Shown: one piece after another, positions 12,865 to 47,163 of the stretch
Layout of the letters: every line of letters starts with the position of its first letter
How positions within the stretch are numbered: position 1 is the first letter of the stretch
Origin: Williamsia sp. DF01-3
GTDB lineage: Bacteria; Actinomycetota; Actinomycetes; Mycobacteriales; Mycobacteriaceae
Length of the DNA stretch: 64,000 bases
Reading direction: 5' to 3'
NCBI RefSeq assembly: GCF_023051145.1
Contig: NZ_JALKFS010000005.1
Span: 372,001 to 436,000 of the forward strand
Notes under the pieces: model-generated
Database searches by the model: none
The model's input: the letters and a program-made list of their open reading frames with translations, nothing else
Told to the model about the DNA's origin: nothing
Made by a program: the position numbers and the translations under genes

Positions 12865-13775
12865 ATGATGGCTCGGACGGCCGAGTATCCCCGGCCCAAC
12901 CACTGCATCGTGCACGTCAGCGACACCCACCTCATCGACGGCGACGGCGATCTCTACGGGGAGTGGACAGCACCTCACGCCTTCGTCAGATACTCACCGA
13001 ACTCACCGGTTCCGGTTCGAGGATCGATGCTCTGGTCTTCACCGGCGACCTCGCCGACAAGGGTGATCCACGCGCCTACGAGACCCTCCGGACGATGGTC
13101 CAGCCTGTCGCCGACGACCTCGGAGCCCAGTTGATCTGGGCGATGGGCAATCACGACGACCGCGCGAACTTCCGGGTGAAGCTGCTCGACCAGGAGCCAT
13201 CGACCACAGCGGTCGACGCGGTGTACGACATCGATGGTCTGCGGATCGTCACCCTCGACACCACGGTGCCCGGGCTCCACCACGGCGAGATCGCCGACGA
13301 GCAACTCGACTGGCTGGCAGGGGTTCTCGCCACTCCCGCCGACTTCGGGACCATCCTCGCCATGCACCACCCTCCGGTGCCCTGTGTGCTGGACCTGGCT
13401 GTCCTGGTCGAACTACACGACCAGAACCGTCTCGCAGACGTGTTGCGCGGCACCGACGTACGATCCATCATCGCCGGACACCTGCACTACTCCACCACCG
13501 CCACATTCGCCGGCATCCCGGTGTCGGTGGCCGCAGCCACCTGCTACAACCAAGATCTCAATGTCCCTGCCGGCGCCATGCGTGGCCGCGACGGAGGCCA
13601 GGGTTACAACCTGGTGCATGTCTACGACACCACCATCGTCCACTCAGCGGTGCCGATCGGTACGTATGAGACTGTCGGAGAGTATGTTTCGCCGGCCGAG
13701 AGCGCGCGCCGACTGGCCGAGGCCGGCATCGTCATCGCCGACGGGCGCAGAACCGATTCGGTCAGTCGCGTCTGA
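12865..13775 (+). CDS. Rv0805-like class III cyclic nucleotide phosphodiesterase, frameshifted in this sequence
   Basis: The protein is split over two frames. Frame one, from ATG 12865, encodes the first metal motif [18 protein letters not shown]. The matching continuation, [14 protein letters not shown], is in another frame from 12963. It then holds [29 protein letters not shown] and [10 protein letters not shown], the rest of the binuclear metal site. Joined, it aligns end to end with M. tuberculosis Rv0805, a metallophosphoesterase that hydrolyses cyclic AMP and other phosphodiesters. One base is missing within GGGGAGTGGAC (about 12958-12967). An internal start at GTG 12963 would remove the DxH ligands. 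Either a base-calling error or a true pseudogene. Confidence 0.8.
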
Positions 13776-28144: not shown

Positions 28145-28577
28145 GGTGAAACTCCTCGTGTGACGGGCTCGCGTCCATGATTGAGCCCAGCTTGTTAATA
28201 GGTGGTCTGGTCGCTACCCCGATGCTTCGGCTCCCGAACCACTCGCGAGTGGTTCACCTCAGCCGGAATCGACGTTCGGCGACCGTTCGAGACTACTGAC
28301 TCGCCAACGGCCGGTCAAACCGCCTCCGTACCACGAAGCGGGCCGCGACCTGCGGTATCGGCGGACGACACGCCTCGATCGGCCAGATTCTTGCCTTTAC
28401 CTGCAACATGTGGTGATCAGTTGTGAGCCCCGGCCAATGTCTGTTAACTTCACCCAAGCTATCCACCCGGGGCGGAATCGCGACAACCCTTTCTGGGGTT
28501 CGCTGTGTCTCGCTGTTCCTCCACACCTGTGGATAACGGTGTGGACAATTGGTGACGAACCACAAAGAGGGATGACC
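28145..28577. other. rpmH-dnaA intergenic region, dnaA promoter side of oriC
   Basis: A 433-base region without a gene. It must hold the divergent rpmH and dnaA promoters. Two perfect DnaA boxes are at 28528-28536 and 28540-28548, 29 bases upstream of the dnaA start, where they could autoregulate dnaA. A weaker CTATCCACC lies near 28457. A ribosome-binding AGAGGG is at 28566-28571. Confidence 0.75.
28528..28548. promoter_or_regulatory. pair of perfect DnaA boxes upstream of dnaA
   Basis: TGTGGATAA (28528-28536) and TGTGGACAA (28540-28548), same orientation, three bases apart. They are the complements of TTATCCACA and TTGTCCACA, the E. coli and mycobacterial consensus boxes. Confidence 0.85.
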
Positions 28578-30211
28578 ATGCCAGCCGATTCGGATCACGA
28601 TTCGTTCAGTGTGATCTGGCGCAAGGTGGTCACAGAACTCAACGACGACACATCTCCCGGTAGCTACCCCCTCTCCAAACAGCAGAAGGCGTGGCTCTCG
28701 CTCGTCCGCCCGCTGACACTCGCCGAAGGCTTCGCGCTCCTCACCGTCCCGACCCCCGGGTCCAGGAACAGATCGAACGCGGTTTGCGGGAACCGATCGT
28801 GTCCGCCCTCAGTCGTCACCTCGGCCATTCGGTGGATCTCGCGGTGCGCATCGATCCGATCGCAGCCGACGCCTACGAGCCTGATCCTCCCGCCGAGCCC
28901 GAGGCGGTCGTGGCAAACGGCCGGCCCCACCGCATAGACGACATCGGGGGTGGCCCCCGGATGAACGGGGACTCCCGCATCGACGCCGGACCACGGCTCG
29001 ACGGCGATTCCCGGAACGTCCATTCGATGGCATCGCCGCCGCCGGAGACCTTCGCCGACCGCGACCGCGACATCAACGGCGGCTCCGGTGGAGACTGGCC
29101 GAGCTACTTCAACACCGACTCCGGTTCGAGGCGCCACGTCGACTCGTCGCGGAGCAGCACGTCGGGCAATTCCAGCGGCGACTCCAGTCTGAACTCCAAG
29201 TACACCTTCGAGACGTTTGTCATCGGTGCCTCGAACCGCTTTGCGCACGCCGCTGCCGTTGCCATCTCCGAGGCACCTGCCCGGGCCTACAACCCGCTGT
29301 TCATCTGGGGAGAATCCGGCCTCGGAAAAACCCACCTGCTCCACGCGGCGGGCCATTACGCGCAGCGGCTGTTCCCCGGCATGCGGGTGAAGTACGTGTC
29401 GACCGAAGAGTTCACCAACGACTTCATCAACTCCCTTCGCGACGACAGGCGAGTGGCGTTCAAGCGCCGCTACCGTGACATGGACGTGTTGCTCGTCGAC
29501 GACATCCAGTTCCTCGAGGGCAAAGAAGGCATCCAGGAAGAGTTCTTCCACACCTTCAACACCCTGCACAACGCGAACAAGCAGATCGTGGTGTCGTCCG
29601 ATCGGCCTCCGAAACAACTTGCGACACTTGAAGATCGGCTACGAACCCGGTTCGAGTGGGGTCTCATCACAGATGTCCAGCCGCCCGAGCTGGAAACCCG
29701 CATCGCCATCCTGCGCAAGAAAGCGCAGATGGACGACATCCGTGTGCCCGACGACGTCCTCGAGCTCATCGCGTCGAAGATCGAGCGGAACATCCGCGAA
29801 CTCGAAGGTGCGCTGATCCGCGTGACCGCTTTCGCGTCCCTCAACCACTCCGAGCTCGACACCGCCCTGGCGGATGTGGTGCTGCAAGCGCTGCTACCCG
29901 ATTCGGCCAGCCTGGAGATCACCGCGGCGACCATCCTCGCGGTCAATGCCGAGTACTTCGACATCAGCATCGAAGAGCTGCGTGGGCCCGGCAAGACCCG
30001 CTCGATCGCCCAGGCGCGGCAGATCGCGATGTATCTCTGTCGCGAACTCACCGACCTGTCCCTGCCGAAGATCGGCGAGACATTCGACCGTGATCACACC
30101 ACGGTGATGTACGCAGACAAGAAGATTCGCAAAGAGATGACCGAGCGTCGGCGCGTGTACGACCAGGTCCAGGAACTCACCGCCAGGATCAAGCAGCGCT
30201 CACGCCGCTGA
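28578..30211 (+). CDS. dnaA: chromosomal replication initiator DnaA, frameshifted in this sequence
   Basis: The protein is split over two frames. From ATG 28578 (AGAGGG six bases upstream; ATG 28572 possible) domain I reads through [20 protein letters not shown] to LLTVPTP. It then continues in another frame from about 28756 as [17 protein letters not shown]. Domain III follows with Walker [12 protein letters not shown] and Walker B LLVDDIQF, and domain IV with [14 protein letters not shown]. One base is missing near the run GACCCCCGGG (28751-28760). Restored, it would be about 544 residues, the usual length. DnaA is essential, so a base-calling error is the simplest reading; a -1 slip on CCCCC would also restore the frame. 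Confidence 0.93.
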
Positions 30212-30511: not shown

Positions 30512-30552
30512 TGTGTACAAGCCCGTGGATAACTACCGAAATCTGTGGATAG
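30512..30552. promoter_or_regulatory. cluster of three near-consensus DnaA boxes in oriC
   Basis: TGTGTACAA (30512-30520), CGTGGATAA (30524-30532) and TGTGGATAG (30544-30552), all in the same orientation, each one mismatch from TGTGGA(T/C)AA. Spacing between the first two is three bases, as in the pair upstream of dnaA. Confidence 0.7.
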
Positions 30553-30667
30553 ACAGTGGACCGTTCCCGCGGCGCCGGGTTGTGTTCACATGTACTTCAA
30601 CTTCACGCGACATCGGCCAACGTTTCGCCCCCAGGCCCGCAGACCGGCCACCAGCCAACAAGACCTG

Positions 30668-30760
30668 TCATCCACAGATTTCACAGGACCTATTACTAAG
30701 AAGAATTTCTCTCTTAACAAGACTCTTTAAAAGAAGGTGTGTGCACAACCCTCGTCCACA
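30668..30760. promoter_or_regulatory. DnaA-box-like sites flanking the A+T-rich block
   Basis: TCATCCACA (30668-30676), TGTGCACAA (30740-30748) and TCGTCCACA (30752-30760) surround the A+T-rich block. Each is one mismatch from consensus. The first and third point opposite to the cluster at 30512-30552. Confidence 0.6.
30691..30736. other. candidate DNA unwinding element
   Basis: Twelve G/C among 46 bases (about 26% by hand count) in a region that is otherwise near two thirds G+C. Its place between DnaA-box-like sites in the dnaA-dnaN gap fits the duplex-unwinding element of oriC. Confidence 0.7.
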
Positions 30761-43067: not shown

Positions 43068-43409
43068 TCAGTTGCCTTGGCCGACGATGTACAGATATCC
43101 GGCGAGGACCAAGATGCCCGCTGCCAGATAGAGATACCCGACCCACAGGGCAGCCACGGCGAACGGCATACCCTGCTCGCCGGTCCGCCGGATCTGCGAC
43201 CGCGCAACGTGGCCGCAGACGATCCCGATCACCGAGGTGACTCCCAGCACCGACAGGATCAAGGCGATGATGGCGGTGACATTGGTCTTGTTGGATCGCG
43301 ACGCGGGCGCAGGACTCATCTCGGCTCCGGACTCCTGATCTGCTGGGTTGTCGCCCTGCGGACCGTCATATCGGGTTTCTGCCGGATCGGACGTCTGCGA
43401 GTACGGCAC
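43068..43409 (-). CDS. DUF4190 two-helix membrane protein, possibly the second half of a split gene
   Basis: A 113-residue frame with two membrane helices and the DUF4190 pattern: TNVTAIIALILSVLGVTSVI, then CGHVARSQIRRTGEQG between helices. The start GTG 43409 has a stop codon two codons upstream and no ribosome-binding site. Family members usually carry a Pro/Gly-rich N-terminal arm. Exactly such an arm is encoded in another frame just upstream (43366-43734), so a one-base error or true frameshift may have split one gene. Confidence 0.75.
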   Translation of the reverse strand: MPYSQTSDPAETRYDGPQGDNPADQESGAEMSPAPASRSNKTNVTAIIALILSVLGVTSVIGIVCGHVARSQIRRTGEQGMPFAVAALWVGYLYLAAGILVLAGYLYIVGQGN

Positions 43410-43734
43410 TGCTCAACGGCGCGGGTGAGGCACCGAGACCAGCCGCGGGGCCGCTCAGTGGTGCCGGAGAGGAGGGAGGCGCCTGACGGCGCCGAGGATC
43501 TTCTCGCGGGCGGCCGACCGGGCCGGGATCGAAAGGCGGTGGTCCGCTGGGACCAGGCCGTGGGGCATAACCACGACCCGGCTCGGGCGGAAGGCCACCG
43601 TGAGGTGCCGGAGCCTGCGGGGGACCGGGCCGGTAACCCGGCGGTGGGCCCTCGGCAGGCCCGGTGCGCGGTTGCCATGCCGGGATGGGCTCGCCATGGC
43701 GGCGTCGGTTGCCCTCGCCGTTCTCAACACTCAC
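43366..43734 (-). CDS. proline-rich open frame, probable N-terminal arm of the DUF4190 protein
   Basis: A 122-residue frame beginning SVENGEGNRRRHGEPIPAWQ and continuing as Pro/Gly/Arg-rich sequence. The arm resembles the usual N-terminus of DUF4190 membrane proteins of Mycobacteriales. It runs 44 bases into the DUF4190 frame and ends without a domain of its own. The start is GTG 43734. Best read as one gene with 43068-43409. Confidence 0.5.
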   Translation of the reverse strand: MSVENGEGNRRRHGEPIPAWQPRTGPAEGPPPGYRPGPPQAPAPHGGLPPEPGRGYAPRPGPSGPPPFDPGPVGRPREDPRRRQAPPSSPAPLSGPAAGLGASPAPLSSAVLADVRSGRNPI

Positions 43735-43780
43735 CCGTCACACCGTACCTGCCGCAGCGACCTCAACTGCCGCGCGAACC

Positions 43781-46687: not shown

Positions 46688-47149
46688 CTACTTTCTCGTC
46701 TCCACGGGCAATCCGGCCCCGCGTAGTGCATCTGCCACATCCAGCGGGTTGGTCCCGAGATCCCACCGGCCGAGGATCACCAATCTCTCCCCTTCGCGGG
46801 CCGCGGTGTCGTCGAGGTCGAACTCGAGATGCGGCACCTGGCGGCCGTAGCGCGAGTAGGTGAGCACCTGGGCGCGGCGCACCGCATCGAATGGATATCT
46901 GCGCGCGCCGGTCACCGTGCGGATCTGGATCAGGTGTCCGTCGATGACGGCGAGCCTGGGCCGCACCACCAGCGCGATCACGCCGAGCACCACCAACAAC
47001 AGTGCTGCGATCGACATCAGCACAAGGCCGGCCGGGTCAGGAGCAGAGAATGCTGCGGCGCCGCCGAGGAGTATGCCGCCGACTACCATGACCGCGCCCA
47101 TCGAAGCCGGGGTGGACCACGCGAGAGAAGGCTGTGCCGAGTTATCCAC
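46688..47149 (-). CDS. PH-domain membrane protein (Rv0010c-like)
   Basis: A 153-residue protein with two N-terminal membrane helices (about 15-65) and a C-terminal PH-like domain (about 70-153, with RRYPFDAVRRAQVLTYSRYG and ILGRWDLGTNPLDVADAL). Position between ppiA/rhomboid and crgA matches Rv0010c. GTG 47149 is chosen from the similarity; it falls inside a DnaA box (47142-47150). An upstream ATG at 47182 would overlap the second box. Function unknown. Confidence 0.78.
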   Translation of the reverse strand: MDNSAQPSLAWSTPASMGAVMVVGGILLGGAAAFSAPDPAGLVLMSIAALLLVVLGVIALVVRPRLAVIDGHLIQIRTVTGARRYPFDAVRRAQVLTYSRYGRQVPHLEFDLDDTAAREGERLVILGRWDLGTNPLDVADALRGAGLPVETRK

Positions 47150-47163
47150 AGGCCTTATCCACA
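47142..47163. promoter_or_regulatory. two perfect DnaA boxes upstream of the PH-domain gene
   Basis: TTATCCACA occurs at 47142-47150 and again at 47155-47163, in the same orientation, starting 13 bases apart. A third, TGTGGATGA (47197-47205), with one mismatch, is inverted. This is a dense cluster 17 kb from oriC, in the short gap between crgA and the PH-domain gene. Confidence 0.8.

Follow-up and report, generated by a model that had tools for sequence, protein, structure and literature searches.

Whether the gene of the replication initiator DnaA is truly interrupted in this strain, or whether the assembly has lost a single base, is the question raised by this locus. The window, i.e., the whole stretch of 64,000 nucleotides analyzed here, covers positions 372001-436000 of contig C5 (5.25 Mb) of a genome of 5.59 Mb in 6 contigs. 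A sequence-only reading of the window had reported a one-base frame change in dnaA after LLTVPTP and had attributed it mainly to an assembly error, with two alternatives, a programmed -1 slip or an internal translation start that omits domain I. Here, the junction was compared among nine genomes (this genome and eight genus-mates), and further stretches of the assembly were searched for similar defects.

The dnaA Reading Frame and Its Neighborhood

The coding sequence of dnaA starts with the ATG at 28578 and from the five-C run onward continues in the -1 frame (Table 1); the junction reads GACCCCCGGG (28751-28760). In the frame of the ATG, translation yields ...LLTVPTP up to the end of the run, then GSRNRSN..., and ends after 119 aa at a stop codon (28935-28937). 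The conserved DnaA continuation begins with GTC 28760, located 182 nt from the A of the ATG (remainder 2), whereas the same distance is 183 nt (remainder 0) in dnaA of the relatives G003, G004, and G006; the frame change reported by the sequence-only reading is thus confirmed. From GTG 28691, the downstream ORF extends without a stop codon to 30211 (506 aa), and its initial approximately 22 codons are the N-terminal region of dnaA in the wrong frame. Five bases 5' of the shortened run, at 28748, this genome carries a private synonymous C where seven of the eight genus-mates have G and G001 has T, which could reflect either another miscall nearby or normal divergence.

Table 1. Coordinates of the dnaA features within the window.
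Feature	Position	Strand	Remark
dnaA N-terminal part (domain I by position)	28578..28757	+	frame of the ATG start; codon comparison with relatives
Five-C run, place of the frame change	28753..28757	+	one base shorter than in 8/8 genus-mates
Remainder of dnaA (PF00308 and PF08299)	28757..30211	+	-1 frame
119-codon ORF created by the frame change	28578..28937	+	3' end is out-of-frame dnaA

Pfam analysis of the downstream ORF recognized the AAA+ ATPase domain (PF00308, residues 167-328, E 5.3e-77) and the C-terminal DNA-binding domain (PF08299, E 4.7e-27). Since the 61-aa N-terminal piece alone matched no Pfam family, its designation as domain I follows from its position and from the full-length DnaA of the relatives. 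A search with the DnaA ATPase family returned a single match in this genome, and therefore no second dnaA copy was found in it. The gene order, read from ORF translations, is rpmH side, dnaA, dnaN, gnd-like gene, recF, gyrB, and gyrA. Of sites resembling the DnaA-box consensus TTRTCCACA, two exact ones are located just 5' of dnaA (28528-28548) and six with one mismatch are found at 30512-30760, in the interval separating dnaA from dnaN, as expected near an origin; the whole window holds 33 such sites with at most one mismatch, as compared to 13.2 expected. At 47142-47163, distant from the dnaA-dnaN region, two exact copies of TTATCCACA occur at a spacing of 13 bases.

Comparison With Related Genomes

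The sequence-only reading had proposed an alignment with dnaA of related Gordonia as a check. When aligned at this place, all eight genus-mates carry one base more at the junction and keep the frame unbroken. With the full-length G006 DnaA as query, residues 1-544 were matched in one piece and without stops in each of the eight, as compared to two matches in this genome, the one listed spanning residues 57-544. A 26-base junction pattern, searched with up to two mismatches, was found in 5 of 400 genomes, exactly in this genome only, and in G003, G004, G006, and G008 solely in the longer form. Judged by these comparisons, no other genome among those searched shares the frame change and, because the longer form occurs in all eight genus-mates, the length difference is not a product of chance. 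An exact search of the GTDB contig collection, from which this genome and near ones may be absent, did not recover a 36-base string spanning the junction, and the plasmid collection contained no match either. The full-length DnaA query detected DnaA in 201 of 201 genomes of the family; only the eight genus-mates were used from this search since many genomes gave double or C-terminal-only matches among the matches listed, which makes a family-wide count of frameshifts unusable. The genus Gordonia, to which the earlier reading had referred this DNA, was not confirmed: dnaA of G. paraffinivorans (L147, the one locus compared out of 80) shows 87-88% DNA identity to genomes of group g9 as compared to 83% to this genome (g1).

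In the 58 codons 5' of the C run, 2, 3, and 2 synonymous differences were counted with respect to G003, G004, and G006, and no amino acid difference. Although these counts are small, they give no sign of drift in the N-terminal part, which implies that the break is either very recent or not real. This bears directly on the proposal that translation in the strain initiates internally, within the downstream frame, and gives a shortened DnaA lacking domain I. That frame is indeed open, it offers in-frame GTG, TTG, and ATG codons (e.g., at 28784, 28799, and 28961), and the ATPase and DNA-binding domains encoded by it are complete. Nevertheless, the N-terminal amino acids are unchanged as compared to three relatives, the full-length frame is kept by all eight genus-mates, and helicase loading in the bacteria studied requires domain I. 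We therefore regard the internal start, for which positive evidence was not obtained, as very unlikely.

The same comparison weighs against full-length DnaA being made via a programmed -1 ribosomal frameshift at the C run. Such a slip could come about by a proline tRNA on CCC shifting back one base and pairing anew, and would yield a protein of normal DnaA sequence; however, the arrangement is not conserved, DnaA being encoded in a single frame in all eight genus-mates, and the 93 nt 3' of the run fold no better than shuffled sequences. For a stimulatory structure in these 93 nt the z-score was +1.19, with 179 of 200 shuffles folding at least as well, in a calculation that excluded pseudoknots and other spacings. 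Among the papers listed in literature searches, titles and opening parts of abstracts pointed to no case of programmed frameshifting in dnaA. The programmed slip considered by the sequence-only reading thus gained no positive support, and its probability appears minimal. The chance that the shorter run is real and that the strain obtains full-length DnaA solely by slippage on the C run, with frameshifting setting the supply of the initiator, is likewise close to nil.

Shortened Homopolymers in the Assembly

Indels were compared over approximately 836 kb of this genome and the matching stretches of G006 and G004, of which approximately 532 kb aligned in all three. Private shortening of C or G runs of 5-6 bases was found eight times in this genome, dnaA counted, twice in G006 and never in G004 (Fisher p ~0.003, this genome against G006 and G004 pooled), and the excess persisted when dnaA was excluded (7 as compared to 2 and 0, Fisher p 0.008). 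By contrast, the total of private one-base indels was not raised (85 as compared to 87 and 83 in the two relatives); the private one-base indels of the three genomes are equal in frequency but different in kind. The whole genome contains 475 runs of exactly six C or G, i.e., 84.9 per Mb, whereas the eight genus-mates range from 87.3 to 128.9 per Mb, densities that are based on rounded genome sizes. This count is weak when taken alone because G001 is almost as low (87.3 per Mb).

The window itself contains nine private one-base indels, six of which lie outside the ORFs called in the relatives and three of which touch ORFs (12958, 28753, and 43404). A location outside called ORFs resembles that of natural indels, and these six count against an artefact. 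A metallophosphoesterase gene (12865-13772), whole in G003, G004, and G006, is broken at 12958 by a one-base difference, private to this genome, at a G run; PF00149 was detected in the 303-aa protein of a relative. The private extra base at 43404 breaks an ORF (43209-43767) called in G004 only, and it is doubtful that this is a real ORF.

Split Conserved Genes Elsewhere in the Assembly

Conserved ORFs were split in 19 of 364 cases in this genome, as compared to 6/356 in G006 and 4/354 in G004 (p ~5e-4, this genome against G006 and G004 pooled), under one filter applied to all three genomes, which admits an ORF only when both other genomes have it whole. Some of the 19 splits concern doubtful ORFs, the relatives also have some splits, and most of the 19 are located away from C or G runs of 5-6 bases. 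A count over 464 kb pointed in the same direction (11/208 here as compared to 4/204 and 5/208). dnaA is not part of the 19 of 364, as it failed the condition of being whole in both other genomes, probably as a result of an ORF that reaches further 5' than the true start.

The proteins of ten of the 19 split ORFs, leaving out the other nine, were scanned with NCBIfam, and five of those ten also with Pfam. NCBIfam matches passed the cut-offs for Pks13 and AroQ, a match to an EgtE-like enzyme fell short of its cut-off, and Pfam recognized an Emb-type arabinosyltransferase and AftA. Each of Pks13, AftA, and AroQ is whole in all eight genus-mates but consists of two pieces in this genome; for the Emb-type gene, the comparison covered G006 and G004. 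Among the 19, five split ORFs, namely pks13, the emb-type gene, aroQ, aftA, and an oxidoreductase-like ORF, fall within approximately 25 kb outside the window (G000:C5:685370-710250, L042 and L043), and their clustering suggests a poorly polished stretch. The initiator and the genes of mycolate synthesis, arabinan synthesis, and the shikimate pathway are important to the cell, and a living cell in which all of these were frame-broken would be far less likely than errors in the assembly.

The main rival to an assembly error is a true deletion of one base that arose very recently in the sequenced stock, with survival via low-level slippage on the C run or another start of replication. Single-base runs are natural hot spots for deletion, which favors such an event, as does the finding of no stand-in second DnaA in this genome. 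Against it, dnaA is an essential gene of nearly all bacteria, relaxed selection is not evident in the N-terminal codons, and other core genes of the same assembly are similarly split, so that a real deletion is considered improbable, if clearly less so than the internal start or programmed frameshifting.

An assembly error, in turn, is favored because the gene is intact in all eight genus-mates and because shortened C or G runs as well as split conserved ORFs are in excess in this assembly. Counted against it are the ordinary level of private indels, the splits lying mostly off C or G runs of 5-6 bases, and the run density of G001. Taken together, the frame change in dnaA is very probably a one-base assembly error, and the main interpretation of the sequence-only reading is supported by the intact genus-mates, the base missing from a homopolymer, and the excess of shortened runs and split ORFs. 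We propose that the assembly is one base short in the C run and that dnaA is otherwise ordinary and full-length; the gene in the cell would most likely be uninterrupted, with approximately 544 codons, and would yield normal DnaA. The cause would be an under-called homopolymer length, probably arising from long-read data without full polishing.

Meaning of the Frame Change and Comparison With Known Systems

The biological importance of the frame change is most likely none: dnaA is most likely ordinary and misrepresented by one base in the assembly. The relevance of this locus lies in quality control, as core genes of the assembly are split by frame changes, and frameshifts in it should consequently not be read as biology without the sequencing reads. 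If the shorter run were true, a replication initiator produced only through frameshifting would be remarkable.

In comparison with known DnaA proteins, the ATPase and DNA-binding domains (PF00308 and PF08299) are both complete here and the gene order around dnaA agrees with that of known bacterial DnaA loci; domain I is joined to them in one frame in all eight genus-mates but not in the given assembly. With programmed -1 ribosomal frameshifting the locus shares a shift into the -1 frame at a homopolymer run, but it differs from it in being unconserved in relatives and in the lack of a detected downstream structure. The closest likeness is to long-read homopolymer errors. Passages of one report describe homopolymer deletions as a common gene-fragmenting error in long-read assemblies, with long-read errors being mostly short homopolymer indels and the example deletions occurring most often after four to five identical bases (PMC12007338), and homopolymer-length errors are named in another as the commonest residual error of long-read-only bacterial assemblies (PMC8812927). 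The dnaA case differs in that the error is here deduced from sequence comparison; as in those assemblies, a single-base run is one base short in one assembly only, the shortening is absent in near relatives, and it is accompanied by an excess of further shortened runs and by split genes in the same assembly.
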